Of a DNA stretch of 59,987 nt, positions 5,189 through 44,300 are shown one piece after another. The notes under the pieces were generated by a model. The model did not search any database and had not been told where the DNA came from. It was given only the letters and a program-made list of their open reading frames with translations. Position numbers and translations under genes: made by a program. Every line of letters starts with the position of its first letter. Positions within the stretch are counted from its first letter, which is position 1. Source of the stretch: Bacteroidales bacterium (GTDB taxonomy: Bacteria > Bacteroidota > Bacteroidia > Bacteroidales > NBLH01); NCBI GenBank assembly GCA_016937695.1, contig JAFGWC010000155.1, positions 1-59,987 on the forward strand. Direction: 5' to 3'.

Positions 5189-6937
5189 CTATTTAACCAC
5201 TATCAAGCTAAGCTCTTTCAATTGTTTATCGTCAATTAAAGCTGGTGCATCATTCATAATATCTCGACCGGCATTATTTTTCGGAAATGCAATTACGTCT
5301 CTAATCGAGTCTGAACCATTAAACAAAGCAACCCATCTATCAAGACCAAAAGCAGCTCCGCCATGAGGTGGCGCTCCATATTTGAAAGCACTCATTAAAA
5401 ATCCGAATTGTGCTTCGGCTTGTTCTTTTGTAAAGCCCAATAAATCAAACATTTTGTGTTGTAATTTCTCATCAAAAATTCTGATAGAACCACCGCCAAT
5501 TTCATTTCCGTTTATTACAAAATCGTATGCATTTGCTCTAACTTTAGCAGGATTTTTGTCAAGTAAATTTAAATCTTCTTTTTTTGGCGATGTAAACGGA
5601 TGATGCATTGCATGAAATCTTTTTGACTCTTCGTTCCACTCTAAAAGAGGAAAATCGACAACCCACAAAGGCACAAATTTATCTTTTGGCATTAAACCTA
5701 ATTGTTTTCCCATTTCTAAACGCAATTTGCCTAAAATCTCCAGACTTTTTTGCATTTCGCCGGAAACAACCAAAAGCAAATCGCCTTTTTTTGCATTTAA
5801 TGCTTCTGCCCATTTTTTTAATTCTTCTTCAGAATAAAACTTATCTACTGATGATTTTAAAGTTCCGTCTTCATTATATTTTACATAAACAAGTCCTTTT
5901 GCGCCAACTTGCGGCGTTTTAACAAAATCAGTTAAACTATCAAGTTGTTTTCTTGTATATAAAGCAGCATTTTCAACACAAATTCCACCAACATATTCAG
6001 AATCGTCAAAAACTTTGAAGCCTTTATTTTTAACAATATCGTTTAAAGGATGAATTTTCATATCAAATCTCAAATCAGGCTTGTCAGAGCCATAATTATT
6101 CATTGCATATTCATATGTTAATCTTGGAAATTCATAAGTAAAATCAATTCCTTTAATCGTTTTAAACAGATGTTTTGCCATTCCTTCAAGCATTTTTATC
6201 ACATCATCCTCATCAACAAAAGACATTTCGCAATCAATTTGGGTAAATTCAGGCTGGCGATCTGCTCTAAAATCTTCATCTCTAAAGCATTTTACTATTT
6301 GATAATATCTGTCTAAACCGGCAACCATAAACAATTGTTTAAAAATCTGCGGCGATTGAGGAAGTGCATAAAACTCTCCGGCATGCATTCTCGAAGGAAC
6401 CACAAAATCTCTTGCGCCTTCCGGTGTTGATTTAATTAAAACTGGAGTTTCTGCTTCTACAAAGTTGTTATTATCCAAATAGTTACGAAATTCTCTCGAC
6501 ATTTTATGTCTTAATTCAAGTCCTCGCCTTATCGGATTTCTTCTCAAATCCAAATATCGATATTTCATTCTAAGCTCTTCGCCTCCATCGGTTTCGTCTT
6601 CTATTGTAAAAGGCGGAATTTCCGATTTGCTAAGTATTTCTATCTCATCAACTAAAATTTCAATATCGCCTGTTGGCATATTTTTATTTTTATTTGAACG
6701 TTCTAAAACAATTCCGGAAACCGAAATCACAAATTCTCTTCCCAATTCTCTTGCAGAATTACTCAAAACCTCATTTCTTTCCAAATCAAAAACCAATTGC
6801 GAAAGTCCGTATCTATCTCTGATATCGACAAATGTCATACCTCCAAGATTTCTAATTTTTTGTACCCAGCCGCTAAGTTTTACTCTTTGGTCTTTATTTT
6901 CAATTCTTAATTCGCCACAATGATGAGTTCTATACAT
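5189..6937 (-). CDS. aspS: Aspartyl-tRNA synthetase, bacterial type
   Basis: The enzyme charges tRNA-Asp with aspartate in the cytoplasm. The protein is 582 residues from the ATG at 6937 ([10 protein letters not shown]), the conserved family start; an upstream in-frame ATG would add 12 unconserved residues. It has an N-terminal OB-fold anticodon-binding domain (residues about 1-110), class II motif 2 ([18 protein letters not shown]), the bacterial GAD insert in the middle, and class II motif 3 ([14 protein letters not shown]) near the C-terminus. The bacterial insert and length distinguish it from AsnRS. It is transcribed away from tadA, with a 297-base divergent spacer holding a large hairpin. 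Confidence 0.97.
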
Positions 6938-38928: not shown

Positions 38929-41091
38929 TTAAATTTCTTTCAAATAATCGCTATAAAAATTCTCAGTTTTAAATAAATCTTCATGTGTGCCAAAATTCTG
39001 AATTTTTCCATTTTCAAGGATATAAATTCTGTCGCTTATATTTTTTAAAATATGTAAACGATGCGAAATATAAAACACAGAAATTTCTTGCTTTAGTTTT
39101 TTCAGTAACTTGATTGTATAATTTTCGGTCTCTCTGTCCATTGCTGCAGTTGCTTCATCAAGAATTAAGAGTTGAGGCTTCTTGTATAATGCTCTGGCAA
39201 AGGCAATTATTTGTTTTTGTCCACCGGATAAGTTTATGCCCTCTTCGCCTAGTAAAGTCATATAGCCTTGTGGCAAAGCATCAATAAATTTTGCAAAACC
39301 ATAGTCGTTTATAAATTTTAGTACTTGCTCGGCTTCGTCTAGTGCATTTCCAAGACAAATATTATCAATTACATTTCCGTTAAAAATATGAATATCTTGT
39401 GGTACAACTCCTATTATTTCACGCCAAGTATTTTCATTTATTTCTGATAGTTTTGTTTTATTATTGATTAAAATACTTCCTGTTTCAGTTTTATAAAACT
39501 TTTGCAGGATATTTCCAAGCGTAGATTTACCGCTACCACTTTCGCCTATAATTGCAATTAGTTCACCTTTTTTTAAGCTGATATTTACATTTTCAAGCAA
39601 TCGCTTTCTTCCCGGAAATCGAAAACTAATATTTTGCATTTCTAAGTTTTCAAATGTTATTTTCTTACCGGGACCTTTCTCTTTTTGTTCAGCTTCAATA
39701 TCAGTAAATTCAAACATACGATTAAATGCAACTTTTGCTTCATTTACAGGTATGGCAATTAATGCAAGATTGCCCACCGAAGGAATAAGGCTGCCTGCAA
39801 TGCCAAGTATTGCCATTAATTCGCCTATTTTCATAACATCGCCATAAACAAGATAGGAAGTATATGCCAATATTGAAATAAGAAATACAACTCCTGCAAT
39901 TCCCGATAATAAACCAAGCTTAATATTTATCTTCCCAAGTTCAAAAATTTTATCCTGAAACAAACCGTAAACTTGCTTATTTAATTTTGAAAAGAAACTT
40001 TGTTTATTAAAGTTTTTAATTGCTGCAATGCCATTCATTGTGCTAATATAGTTGCTTTCGCTATGTGCATAGTTTTGCATTACTGATTTTTGAGCATCAA
40101 TAATTTTTTTATTAAAACTATAAACTAATAAAAAGTATACAGGCAAACTTAAAGATGCAATAACACCTGTTTGCCAAGAATAAATAAACAAAAAGGCAAT
40201 AGAAGTAAATGAAACAAGTAAATCTATTATAAAATTACCTGAAATTTGAGTAATTACACGTTGTATGCGCGTAGTATCGTTTAATCTGGCAACAAGCTCA
40301 CCTATTTTGCGAGTATCAAAAAATCTTTTTGGCAAATACAATAACGAACTATAAAAAGAATCAATTATTCTGTTATTAAAGTTTTTGGTTTGTGTTACAA
40401 GCATAAACTGACTAATAGCAATAAAAACAACTCTTGCAATTAATAAAAAACAAACAAGTGCAATTCCCATAAACAGTTTTAAAAGTTCTTTTGCAGGTAA
40501 AATATCATCAATTAGCTTTTGTGAAAATACTGCCATTGCCATACCCAAAACTGATATTACAATTCCTATTGCTATACTAATTCCAAGTAATTCATAATCA
40601 TCTTTTATCAGTTTTAAAATCCACTCTTTTTTTGATTTTTTTGTATTCTCTGTTTTCTTAAACTCTCCGTTTGGCTCTAATGTTAAGCATTTTTTAGTTT
40701 TCCATACTTTGTCCAATTCTTCTTTTGTATAAAAAACTCTGCCTTTTGCAGGGTCGCCAATTATAAATTTATTGTTTTCGTAGCCATAGCAAACAAGATA
40801 ATGCTCTAGTTTCTCTTCAATTACTACATGTAAAATTAATGGTTCGCCATGCTCTATAATTACCTGTATATCAGCCTCATTGCCTTCTGCATTAAAACCT
40901 GCATTATTTGCTGCTTGATATAAACCAAGCAAAGTAGTTCCTTGTTTTGTTGTACCGCTAATTTCACGAAATTTTTCGATAGAAATATCGCCACCATAGT
41001 ATTTTGTTAGTGATGAAAGGCAAGCTACACCGCAATCTGATTGGTCGTGCTGTAAGGTGAAGGTTTTTTTTAGTTGTTTTAAGTTAGTCAT
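38929..41091 (-). CDS. Peptidase-containing ABC exporter (C39 bacteriocin type)
   Basis: A 720-residue exporter that cuts double-glycine leader peptides and secretes the core. Residues about 10-135 are the C39 cysteine peptidase with Gln14, Cys20 (LQHDQSDCGVACL), His97 (LEHYLVCYGY) and Asp113 (IIGDPAKG). A six-helix ABC membrane domain follows (about 165-450), then the ATPase with Walker A GESGSGKST, signature LSGGQKQ and Walker B LLILDEATAAMD. All catalytic residues are intact. Two genes for double-glycine peptides lie upstream on the same strand, which fixes the likely substrate. I use ATG 41091; ATG 41106 adds five residues. A palindromic element separates it from the thioredoxin-like gene. 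Confidence 0.92.
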   Translation of the reverse strand: MTNLKQLKKTFTLQHDQSDCGVACLSSLTKYYGGDISIEKFREISGTTKQGTTLLGLYQAANNAGFNAEGNEADIQVIIEHGEPLILHVVIEEKLEHYLVCYGYENNKFIIGDPAKGRVFYTKEELDKVWKTKKCLTLEPNGEFKKTENTKKSKKEWILKLIKDDYELLGISIAIGIVISVLGMAMAVFSQKLIDDILPAKELLKLFMGIALVCFLLIARVVFIAISQFMLVTQTKNFNNRIIDSFYSSLLYLPKRFFDTRKIGELVARLNDTTRIQRVITQISGNFIIDLLVSFTSIAFLFIYSWQTGVIASLSLPVYFLLVYSFNKKIIDAQKSVMQNYAHSESNYISTMNGIAAIKNFNKQSFFSKLNKQVYGLFQDKIFELGKINIKLGLLSGIAGVVFLISILAYTSYLVYGDVMKIGELMAILGIAGSLIPSVGNLALIAIPVNEAKVAFNRMFEFTDIEAEQKEKGPGKKITFENLEMQNISFRFPGRKRLLENVNISLKKGELIAIIGESGSGKSTLGNILQKFYKTETGSILINNKTKLSEINENTWREIIGVVPQDIHIFNGNVIDNICLGNALDEAEQVLKFINDYGFAKFIDALPQGYMTLLGEEGINLSGGQKQIIAFARALYKKPQLLILDEATAAMDRETENYTIKLLKKLKQEISVFYISHRLHILKNISDRIYILENGKIQNFGTHEDLFKTENFYSDYLKEI

Positions 41092-41115
41092 TAGTATATT
41101 GGCCATTAGTAATTG

Positions 41116-41203
41116 GAACGCGGATGACGCTGATTGAGCAGATAGCAGCGGATTTTTTTATTAACATCAGTGTAAATCCGTAAAATTCGCGTTATCTGCG
41201 TTC
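41116..41203. repeat. Intergenic palindromic repeat inside the peptide-export operon
   Basis: The left arm GAACGCGGATGACGCTGATT and the right arm, read on the other strand as GAACGCAGATAACGCGAATT, form an imperfect inverted repeat around a T-rich centre, with internal motifs of about 11 bases (GCGGATT, AAATCCGT). Sequences of this style are widespread intergenic elements in Bacteroidota and other phyla. The outer base is also the last base of the thioredoxin-like gene's TAG stop. Confidence 0.7.
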
Positions 41204-41724
41204 TATAATTTTAAGTATTTTAGTAAGGCATCAACTTTTACTTCGCCTTTAAATTGTCTGGTTAATTTACCTTGTTCGCTGTAAATAAGCGAGTTCGGAA
41301 TGCCTGATTTTCCAAAAATATCGTTAAAAATCATATCTTTATCTTCCAAAAATGTAATGTTTTCGTATCCCAATAGCTTATGTTTACTTGCATAAGTTTT
41401 AATTTCCTGTGTTTCGGCATAAGAAATAAAAACTAATTGATATTCTTTAAATTCATCAATTCTTTTGCTTATAATTTCGGCTTCGTTTTGGCAATGTTCG
41501 CATTCGGGATGAAAATATATGATTAATGCTGATTTATTTTGTTTTAAATTTAAATGCGTAAAAGTACTATCTGTAACAAGTTTGTAGAAATAAAATTCGG
41601 GTATGGTTTTTATTTGTTCTGCTATTTTTGCTTTACTTTCTATAATAGCATAAATTTTATATGCCATAAAACTTAAAACAAATACGATTAAAGCAGGAAT
41701 AACTATTTTCAATACTTTTTTCAT
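41203..41724 (-). CDS. Membrane-anchored thioredoxin-like protein (CEHC)
   Basis: The 173-residue protein has one N-terminal helix (residues about 4-27) that anchors it so the rest faces the periplasm. The thioredoxin fold is of the TlpA/redoxin type: SALIIYFHPECEHCQNEA carries the CxxC pair Cys75-Cys78, and the cis-proline region is KSGIPNSLIY. Reaction: thiol-disulfide exchange. Both precursor peptides of the cluster have exactly two core cysteines, so it may make or reduce their disulfide; that is inference. It lies two bases after the membrane protein gene at 41727, indicating co-translation. Confidence 0.8.
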   Translation of the reverse strand: MKKVLKIVIPALIVFVLSFMAYKIYAIIESKAKIAEQIKTIPEFYFYKLVTDSTFTHLNLKQNKSALIIYFHPECEHCQNEAEIISKRIDEFKEYQLVFISYAETQEIKTYASKHKLLGYENITFLEDKDMIFNDIFGKSGIPNSLIYSEQGKLTRQFKGEVKVDALLKYLKL

Positions 41725-41726
41725 AA

Positions 41727-42395
41727 TTAACTTATATTCAGGCTTATAAACATTACAAATACAAGCCAGACAATAAGAGCAACAAAATAAGTACTTAATA
41801 CCAAACCAAGTGATTTATTATAGTCTAATTTGCTAAATTTACTTATTAAAAAAGCTAAAAATAACCAATAAATTAGTTCAAAAATATTTGCAAGACTAAA
41901 AGGATAAATTAACCAAGGATAGATTTCATCTTTATTAAACATCGATAATAACGAAAGAAAATTAAAATCACCAAATTCTTGCATTGTTTGTGCTTCGTAA
42001 AAAAACAAAAACCAAAATAATTTTATCAATTTTGGAATAAAGAAAATAGTTTCTGCAATCATTGCTGCTTGGAACAAATTTTTAAATCCAATTTTATAAT
42101 CTTTTAATATATCTCCAATATTCAAAACGATTGCAATAATAACAAATTTAAGAAAAATAAATATTGGTGATAAAATATAAGAAATCCAATCGAACTTTAA
42201 CCTAGTTGCGATAATTCGTTCAATACGTTGTGAAGTCAGTTGCTCTGCAAAGCTATTGTAAATTAAATCTTCTGTAATTATTAATTTATTGGTTAAAAAA
42301 GTAATTATAAACGATAAACTACAAAAGGCAACGAAAAAATAAAATGGTGAATAAAGCAAATTGATCTTTTTTTCTAAAATTATACTGTTATTCAT
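41727..42395 (-). CDS. Multi-spanning membrane protein of the peptide cluster
   Basis: A 222-residue protein with about five membrane helices (residues near 15-40, 70-90, 108-130, 163-183, 195-220) and no signal peptide. It has no motif that I recognise; the layout is vaguely like the Yip1-type membrane proteins. It is packed tightly: 10 bases after the DUF4412-like gene and 2 bases before the thioredoxin-like gene, so it belongs to the operon. By context it could be an immunity protein, an exporter partner or a folding helper. Confidence 0.6.
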   Translation of the reverse strand: MNNSIILEKKINLLYSPFYFFVAFCSLSFIITFLTNKLIITEDLIYNSFAEQLTSQRIERIIATRLKFDWISYILSPIFIFLKFVIIAIVLNIGDILKDYKIGFKNLFQAAMIAETIFFIPKLIKLFWFLFFYEAQTMQEFGDFNFLSLLSMFNKDEIYPWLIYPFSLANIFELIYWLFLAFLISKFSKLDYNKSLGLVLSTYFVALIVWLVFVMFISLNIS

Positions 42396-42405
42396 ATCAT
42401 ATTTT

Positions 42406-43068
42406 TTATTTCAGCTTGTCTTTGGTGTACCTTCTTGCCAAGTTCTTCATATTTACTTTTTTTATTGGATAATCAGGTAATTCAAATATGTAATCTTCCA
42501 ATTTACTTTCTTGAATGTTTGTAGCTATCATTAGCTTATCAGCTGTTTTAAATTTATATAGAATTTTTAATGCAATCCCTAAATCTTTTATCATAAAATC
42601 ACCATAAGTATTCTTAGTTTTTAACGAATCAGCAATCCACAAATAGACTTTATATTCATTAGAACTTTCATTTTTAATTAGTTCATATTTTGTACAAACA
42701 TACCCTAACACATATTCTTTCTTTCTAAATTGGGTTAACTTATTGCTCAATGATTTAAGATTAGGAACAATTGTGTCATAACTTATATCTTGAATAATTA
42801 GGCGATTTTCATCATTTATAATATACCATTTAACTCCAAACAACAAATTATATCTTGTTGAATCAAAAAATACTCCTCCAATTTTAACATTTTTAATTTT
42901 AGTGTCTTTAATAAAGAATGTGCTTTTTTCTTTAGCATTTTTATTCTCTTCTAATAAATTTTCCTTAGCATTTATTTCAGTATAATCAATTTTACCCTCA
43001 AAAAACTGAGCACTTAAAATAATATTATAACCAATATGAATTAAAATAATGAATATAAACTTCTTCAT
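42406..43068 (-). CDS. Secreted DUF4412/GLPGLI-like protein, partner of peptide 1
   Basis: The 220-residue protein has a signal peptide (residues 1-20, cleavage near LSAQ). The mature part starts FFEGKIDYTE and contains VLGYVCTKYEL, VYLWIADSLK, GIALKILYKF and the end LEDYIFELPDYPIKKV, an order of motifs shared by the DUF4412 and GLPGLI families of periplasmic beta-rich proteins. It starts 94 bases after precursor peptide 1 and is paralogous to the protein at 43462. One such protein follows each peptide gene, which suggests a dedicated partner such as immunity, binding or maturation. Confidence 0.65.
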   Translation of the reverse strand: MKKFIFIILIHIGYNIILSAQFFEGKIDYTEINAKENLLEENKNAKEKSTFFIKDTKIKNVKIGGVFFDSTRYNLLFGVKWYIINDENRLIIQDISYDTIVPNLKSLSNKLTQFRKKEYVLGYVCTKYELIKNESSNEYKVYLWIADSLKTKNTYGDFMIKDLGIALKILYKFKTADKLMIATNIQESKLEDYIFELPDYPIKKVNMKNLARRYTKDKLK

Positions 43069-43161
43069 AATTAGACAAATTATAATAGACTTTTTAATTA
43101 AATAATATCGTAAAAATAAAATATTATAAAACTAAAAAGTCTAAAATTAAAAAGAATTAAA

Positions 43162-43317
43162 TTAAATAGTACACTGAATTACAAGCCCTTTCAATGCGGC
43201 ATATTGGTCAGGATATGCAACATATAAATAATCTAAAACATAAGAAACATCATCGCAACTAATTGCCATTTCTCCACCTTGTACATTTTCCATTTCTTCT
43301 AAATCTAATTTTTTCAT
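43162..43317 (-). CDS. Double-glycine leader precursor peptide 1
   Basis: A 51-residue peptide. The leader MKKLDLEEMENVQGG fits the double-glycine consensus (L-x-L-E-E-M-x-x-V-x-G-G) cut by C39 peptidases after Gly15. The predicted core is 36 residues, EMAISCDDV to the end IQCTI, with cysteines at 21 and 49 and many aromatic residues (YLYVAYPDQY). It aligns with the second precursor over its whole length. A TACGTTTA element lies upstream in the 144-base spacer, so it may also have its own promoter. The C39 exporter in the same operon is the expected processing enzyme. Activity (antibacterial or signal) is unknown. Confidence 0.85.
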   Translation of the reverse strand: MKKLDLEEMENVQGGEMAISCDDVSYVLDYLYVAYPDQYAALKGLVIQCTI

Positions 43318-43461
43318 AATAAAAATGTTTAAAGTTTATAAATTAATTTAATAAAGCCTAAACGTATCAAAAATTTTTCAATTCATTTTTTTTACATGAA
43401 TGACTGTTTTTCTTTGATGAATAAATGATTTTATGTGATTAATGCGGAATGTATTTAAACA

Positions 43462-44046
43462 CTATCTAACATATTGTTTTGTTAGTTTTTCAAAATCAAC
43501 TTCTTCAATTGGGTAATCAGGTAATTCGAAAAGTTTATCTTCAAGTTTCATTTTTTTTATTTCAATGGCTTCTACTTCATAAGTACTTTGAACAGATTTT
43601 AATACTATTCTACCATTTCGAACTCTCTTTGATCCATTTTGATTATTTGCTTTTAAAGAATCTGAAATATAATAAATTATATTTCCATAAGGAGTGTCCC
43701 TCTCTTCTTCATACAGAGTACAAGTATATCCTAAAATAAGCTCTTTCTTTTTATTTTTCATTAATTTGATATTTCCCTTAACTATTTTGTTTTTACTTTT
43801 TTTTATTAACTTATTAAGCTCAGAAATATTATACAAATCGCTTCCAAGATTCAAAGAATAACCCGAAAATGCGATGTCATCTAAATAGAGCTGGATTTTA
43901 GATTTACTGTTTTTTATAAAATATTCAGAAGTCATAATATGCCCTTGTTGCCTACTTTGATATTGGATTAAACCTTCAAAGGTTTGGGCTTTTATTAAAA
44001 CAGAGAATAAAAACATTGGTAATAATACTGAAATACATTTTACCAT
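43462..44046 (-). CDS. Secreted DUF4412/GLPGLI-like protein, partner of peptide 2
   Basis: The 194-residue protein has a signal peptide (residues 1-20, ending LIKAQ) and a mature part starting TFEGLIQYQSR. Shared landmarks with the paralogue at 42406 are ILGYTCTLYEE, YYISDSLK, GRIVLKSV and LEDKLFELPDYPIEEV. It lacks the insertion after the first strand found in the paralogue. It starts 90 bases after precursor peptide 2, nearly the same spacing as in the other module, so the peptide and partner were probably duplicated together. Confidence 0.65.
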   Translation of the reverse strand: MVKCISVLLPMFLFSVLIKAQTFEGLIQYQSRQQGHIMTSEYFIKNSKSKIQLYLDDIAFSGYSLNLGSDLYNISELNKLIKKSKNKIVKGNIKLMKNKKKELILGYTCTLYEEERDTPYGNIIYYISDSLKANNQNGSKRVRNGRIVLKSVQSTYEVEAIEIKKMKLEDKLFELPDYPIEEVDFEKLTKQYVR

Positions 44047-44135
44047 AGATAAGAGTTAATTAAAAATTAGAATCTCAAATATTAAACATTGAGTAGAACG
44101 ATAGTGTGAAAATAAAAGAGCTTATTTATGAGTTC

Positions 44136-44300
44136 CTATGTACACTGAATATTACCACTCAAATAATAAAATAATACCGCCCCAAGTTGTGGACTATCAT
44201 TTATCCACAAATAGTCGATAACAGCATCTACATCAGCACAAGAAATTGCCATAGTTCCACCTTTTACTACTTCCATTTCTTCTAAATTTAATTTTTTCAT
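44136..44300 (-). CDS. Double-glycine leader precursor peptide 2
   Basis: A 54-residue peptide and first gene of the operon. The leader MKKLNLEEMEVVKGG differs from peptide 1 at four positions; cleavage after Gly15 gives a 39-residue core from TMAISCADV to NIQCT. Cysteines are at 21 and 53, the same frame of conserved residues as in peptide 1 (MAISC, D-V, V, DYL near the start; IQCT at the end). The middle is variable (WINDSPQLGAVLFYYLSG). A promoter-like TTG/TATTTTG pair lies 42-72 bases upstream, next to a nine-G tract. No lanthionine or radical-SAM enzyme gene is nearby, so a plain disulfide peptide is likeliest. Confidence 0.85.
   Translation of the reverse strand: MKKLNLEEMEVVKGGTMAISCADVDAVIDYLWINDSPQLGAVLFYYLSGNIQCT

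Follow-up and report, generated by a model that had tools for sequence, protein, structure and literature searches.

A putative operon for two secreted peptides was found in a stretch of Bacteroidales DNA of about 60 kb (contig JAFGWC010000155.1, 59,987 nucleotides; hereafter the window). Seven open reading frames (ORFs), all on the minus strand, are open at 38929-44300, and along the direction of transcription they encode peptide precursor 2, a DUF4412-like protein, peptide precursor 1, a further DUF4412-like protein, a membrane protein, a thioredoxin-like protein and an exporter of the C39 peptidase-ATP-binding cassette (C39-ABC) kind, which is the order that a first-pass annotation of the same DNA had given. 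Very probably, this operon serves to export two small peptides with disulfide bonds through a machine of the bacteroidetocin type. The peptides themselves, judged by sequence, are not bacteroidetocins, and the best reading of the locus is a bacteriocin operon with exchangeable partners that are probably immunity proteins. The intergenic gaps measure, in the order of transcription, 89, 144, 93, 10, 2 and 96 bases, and the seven genes would be transcribed as one unit.

The pattern of a double-glycine (GG) leader matched exactly two ORFs in the 60 kb, where 0.05 were expected from first-order resamplings. Peptide precursor 2 (54 amino acids, 44136..44300, minus strand) begins with the 15-residue leader MKKLNLEEMEVVKGG, which ends in Gly-Gly, and continues into the predicted core TMAISCADVDAVIDYLWINDSPQLGAVLFYYLSGNIQCT, which has 39 residues, Cys at core positions 6 and 38 and a charge of about -4.6. 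Peptide precursor 1 (51 amino acids, 43162..43317, minus strand) is built in the same manner, with the 15-residue leader MKKLDLEEMENVQGG, again ending in Gly-Gly, and the predicted core EMAISCDDVSYVLDYLYVAYPDQYAALKGLVIQCTI of 36 residues, Cys at core positions 6 and 34 and a charge of about -4.2. The two peptides are 58-63% identical. Average masses calculated for the predicted cores are 4047.6 and 4284.8 Da, each about 2 Da less in oxidised form. For peptide 1, a shallow AlphaFold2 model (predicted local distance difference test score, pLDDT, 72 overall and about 85 in the helices; predicted template modelling score, pTM, 0.43) showed the core as a helical hairpin, with bridge residues next to both Cys, and such a two-helix core would fit a single closing disulfide. 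When this model was used for a fold search, no solved structure was matched (best E 7.8).

The exporter (725 amino acids, 38929..41106, minus strand) scored far over the Pfam cut-off against Peptidase_C39, ABC_membrane and ABC_tran; it is a full-length homologue of PCAT1 (PDB 4ry2) and ComA, its catalytic Cys, His and Asp align with those of PCAT1, and its ATPase motifs are intact. It also aligned over its full length, at 34% identity, with the exporter of a bacteroidetocin-type locus of Hallella colorans. Unlike the window exporter, PCAT1 and ComA have, to our knowledge, no accompanying transmembrane (TM) protein and thiol oxidoreductase at their loci. In the window, the gene ahead of the exporter (41203..41724, minus strand) encodes a membrane-anchored thioredoxin/TlpA-like thiol oxidoreductase that reached the cut-offs of both AhpC-TSA and Thioredoxin and has kept the motif CEHC at residues 75-78. 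The membrane protein (41727..42395, minus strand) has five predicted TM segments; it matched no Pfam family, a profile search gave no relative in the PDB, and it is homologous to its TM counterpart at loci of the bacteroidetocin type.

The bacteroidetocin region as published (Coyne et al., 2019, PMC6671954) has four genes: besides the peptide, with its GG leader of 15-16 residues, they encode a protein with five TM segments, a thiol oxidoreductase and an exporter of the C39-ABC kind. Bacteroidetocins A-D and their relatives have been proposed as class IIf. Carried by E. coli, these four genes sufficed for toxin activity; deletion of the TM or the thiol gene weakened the activity, and neither gene conferred immunity (PMC6671954). 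When genome contigs were scanned with a two-row alignment of the membrane protein (a 15-row alignment was too diverse), one named locus was returned, that of Hallella colorans DSM 100333 (L060). Hallella colorans is the current name of Prevotella colorans, which the bacteroidetocin paper lists among its sources, in a figure of close relatives (PMC6671954), and we take this locus as the published one by the species name and its features rather than by the sequences of that figure. It encodes a peptide with the 15-residue leader KFWGKNTQCEKRENNQCWCR... and four Cys, a thiol protein with an intact CxxC, a C39-ABC exporter and a TM protein, the gene of which is split by a transposase-like ORF (L060:5095-7405, the insertion at 5510-6748). 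Models of the ancillary proteins, built solely from the sequences of the window and of a congener (G006), recovered in Hallella colorans the TM protein at 2e-7 (from half of the split gene), the thiol protein at 1e-8 and the exporter at 5e-131, and they found the same trio in a further locus, L054 (TM protein 7e-10). From this recovery of the whole trio, we assign the window machine to the bacteroidetocin type with high confidence.

The window shares with the bacteroidetocin region the 15-residue GG leaders, at least two Cys in the core, the five-TM protein, the thiol oxidoreductase, the C39-ABC exporter and the lack of a visible adaptor gene. The first-pass annotation had found the layout unlike the lanthipeptide, microcin and radical-SAM ones; that it matches no known layout at all is not supported, as a GG peptide together with a TM protein, a thiol oxidoreductase and an exporter of the C39-ABC kind is the four-gene region described earlier (PMC6671954). 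The order differs, being TM-peptide-thiol-ABC in the bacteroidetocin region and peptide-partner-peptide-partner-TM-thiol-ABC in the window; in the window, each of the two peptides has a secreted partner of the DUF4412-like kind, and the cores carry two Cys each, compared with four in bacteroidetocins A and B. The layout is a variant of the published one, and what differs in it is the lineage-specific secreted partner and the anionic two-Cys peptides.

Partner 2 (194 amino acids, 43462..44046, minus strand) has an N-terminal stretch resembling a signal peptide that ends in ...KAQ, and it is 38% identical to partner 1 (220 amino acids, 42406..43068, minus strand). The two window copies scored 14.9 and 17.5 bits against PF14371 and did not reach the cut-off of 21.6. 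Their homologues do match this family (10 of 14 aligned members at E 0.01, best 1.6e-19), and a profile comparison of a window partner with one PF14371-matching homologue gave a probability of 97%, so that the DUF4412-like label of the earlier annotation holds by way of the homologues. Through these, both partners belong to the sequence family of DUF4412 (PF14371) and the GLPGLI/Porph_ging secreted proteins; at other loci, the DUF4412 members that we read adjoin neither a GG peptide nor a C39 exporter, unlike the window partners. No relative in the PDB was found with a profile of the DUF4412 relatives, the only match being at chance level, and our literature search returned no paper naming DUF4412 and none joining GLPGLI with a bacteriocin.

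The congener G006, of the same genus, carries the same system on its contig 110 as a tandem array of four modules that ends in one C39-ABC gene. Module 1 consists of a GG peptide, a CarboxypepD_reg-like protein, the membrane protein, two further CarboxypepD_reg-like proteins and the thioredoxin-like protein; module 2 of a GG peptide, a secreted protein of ~400 amino acids, the membrane protein and the thioredoxin-like protein; module 3 of a GG peptide of the window type, a DUF4412-like protein, the membrane protein and the thioredoxin-like protein; and module 4 of two GG peptides with a CarboxypepD_reg-like protein, after which comes the single C39-ABC gene. Peptide and partner thus occur in all modules, and the membrane and thioredoxin-like genes in three. 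The peptide of module 3 is 37-39% identical to the window peptides and its partner 31-33% identical to the window partners, so that the window pairs are closer mutually (peptides 58-63%, partners 38%) than to their counterparts in G006, as would be expected if peptide and partner had been duplicated as a pair. A second genome of the genus thus repeats the gene order and has a like peptide, so that the lack of conservation which the first-pass annotation had named as refuting its proposal does not apply. Its proposal of a system for GG peptides in which a C39 exporter and a thiol enzyme are joined by secreted partners is supported.

Across loci with this machine, the gene beside the peptide varies: it may encode a DUF4412-like, a CarboxypepD_reg-like or an unclassified secreted protein, DUF2059, an ABC-2-type permease with an ATPase (labelled from the permease-plus-ATPase layout), a DUF5687 permease or a small TM protein. 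Secreted partners stood beside peptides poor in Gly and Ala, and membrane-type partners beside peptides rich in them (Mann-Whitney p = 8e-5; p = 6e-4 for the hydropathy index GRAVY), in a set of 23 hand-labelled peptides, the labels being post hoc and the loci related and hence not independent; we regard this tracking of peptide type by partner type as suggestive. The L046 core had been mis-split in the Gly+Ala test, and its corrected value of 0.36 falls on the same side. At L047, two peptides of different type are each followed by a distinct partner. Peptides of the KFWG type, like that of Hallella colorans, occur with a CarboxypepD_reg-like secreted partner at L050:10423-11495, L129:8849-10007 and L130:7600-8920, and without one in L054 and L060; the partners at the first three loci are candidate immunity genes for bacteroidetocin-type peptides.

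The membrane-protein model matched 17 of 393 sampled Bacteroidales genomes. A thioredoxin-like gene lies alongside in 14 of these, from 13 of 206 genera, with a C39-ABC gene also in view in 13, and nearly all of these genomes carry recognisable GG-type peptides. The matches set apart were one spurious (G141) and two on contigs of ~4 kb without an exporter (G273, G002). At the level of the class, 20 of 395 genomes matched, several with full sets and others in exporter-free contexts; within the family of G330, the system was present in only 2 of 301 sampled genomes. The DUF4412-like partner was seen in such a setting in the window genome and G006 only. Further matches to the partner model in the 395 class and 393 order genomes were weak, and no GG peptide or C39 gene adjoined those class-level loci that were read, the order-level ones being unread. 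The earlier description of the system as lineage-specific therefore stands for the DUF4412-like partner in this setting and fails for the machine, which is widespread. The membrane-protein family has a second context: its homologues at L117, L119-L121 and L125-L128 lack a C39 exporter, and several of them lie beside a gene for ~980-1000 amino acids. At L113:6403-7806, six GG-leader precursors stand in a row directly ahead of the TM, thiol and exporter genes; most of their cores contain Cys, and two share the ending ICPPGQ[IF]C.

Other known peptide systems were set aside, in agreement with the first-pass annotation. A Pfam scan of the seven genes showed neither a lanthionine synthetase nor a radical-SAM enzyme, and a lanthipeptide or radical-SAM reading, as for a ribosomally synthesised and post-translationally modified peptide (RiPP), was dropped for this reason. 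No HlyD-type adaptor was seen among the neighbouring genes, read by eye without a family scan, which led us to drop a class II microcin as well; nor was an outer-membrane channel gene seen in the locus. The sole other C39 gene of this genome (L157:4645-12767, G000 contig 92) lies in a locus arranged differently, where it is accompanied by a short ORF containing GG and a gene for an adaptor-like protein of 434 amino acids. A repeated element considered between the thioredoxin-like and exporter genes was rejected, having no second copy in the genome.

For the system as a whole, we propose that the 15-residue leader would bring each precursor to the C39-ABC exporter, which would cleave after Gly-Gly and deliver the core to the periplasm, where the thioredoxin-like protein and the five-TM protein would join the two Cys that bracket the core. 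The DUF4412-like protein, reaching the periplasm by its signal peptide, would bind its cognate peptide and so protect the producer. As the partners are matched to the peptide, are exchangeable and would be located where the exported peptide arrives, immunity proteins are the simplest reading of them. We consider it probable that the peptides act as bacteriocins; for immunity as the role of the partners the balance is even, and the account taken whole, two antibacterial peptides exported by a bacteroidetocin machine with protective DUF4412-like partners, we hold to be slightly favoured.

Several observations weigh against this account. Producers of bacteroidetocins A and B are self-inhibiting and have no immunity gene (PMC6671954), which means that such a machine can do without a partner. 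The window cores are anionic, whereas bacteroidetocins A and B are cationic (PMC6671954); they gave no local alignment to the Hallella colorans peptide, the sole bacteroidetocin-type peptide compared, the likeness of peptide 1 to it being confined to the leader; and the predicted cores of 36 and 39 residues fall short of the 42-53 residues of mature bacteroidetocins (PMC8546649). On account of the lack of core similarity and the shorter predicted mature length, we describe the window locus as working like a bacteroidetocin locus and do not file it as one. The function of DUF4412 is not established, and an AlphaFold2 model of the partner, with an alignment of the two window copies, reached a pLDDT of 34 and was unusable. 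The association of peptide and partner comes from the small post hoc set described above, and L045, where a hydrophobic peptide has a DUF2059 partner, breaks the rule.

The main rival also has the peptides as bacteriocins but gives the DUF4412-like proteins another role, as carriers or chaperones in the periplasm that bring the peptide across from the exporter in the inner membrane to the outer membrane. That no adaptor gene was seen in the window locus, whereas an adaptor-like gene stands beside the other C39 gene of the genome, would suit such a role, as would the signal peptides of the partners and their variation with the peptide; the partner-free four-gene region nevertheless suffices for toxin activity from E. 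coli (PMC6671954), and loci for hydrophobic peptides have ABC-2 permeases with ATPases or small TM proteins in the same slot, which resemble immunity functions more than carriage. We therefore consider carriage unlikely.

C39 exporters also serve pheromones, and the peptides might instead be secreted signals or surface components that use the same export and oxidation, with the DUF4412-like proteins as binding or receptor proteins. ComA is among the matches of the window exporter, and the anionic charge of the cores, unlike that of bacteroidetocins A and B, would agree with such a use. We give this a low probability: no regulator or kinase lies within the operon, the nearest characterised use of the machine is antibacterial (PMC6671954), and a tandem array in which peptide and partner have diversified would be more usual for toxin-immunity pairs. 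That peptides 1 and 2 act jointly as a two-peptide (class IIb) bacteriocin, as two GG precursors with one dedicated C39 exporter in one operon might suggest, is highly improbable, given that the peptides are paralogues, that neither core contains GxxxG, that each has its own partner where class IIb systems have one immunity gene, and that the matching module of G006 has only one such peptide.

A bacteriocin operon with peptide-matched partners thus remains the reading that we prefer. Beyond the window, we suggest tentatively, and at somewhat under even confidence, that in Bacteroidota a single shared machine exports and oxidises many GG peptides that are unrelated, and that a swappable adjoining slot encodes the matching immunity protein, whether DUF4412-like, CarboxypepD_reg-like, ABC-2/DUF5687 or small TM. 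If this is true, the DUF4412-like and CarboxypepD_reg proteins would be new kinds of periplasmic bacteriocin immunity protein, and bacteroidetocins A and B, the producers of which inhibit themselves, would come from loci without the partner. The loci that share the machine and have peptide-matched partners supply immunity candidates of a kind absent from the bacteroidetocin A and B regions, and they suggest that the machine is a general platform for peptide secretion across Bacteroidia, not one dedicated to a single toxin family.

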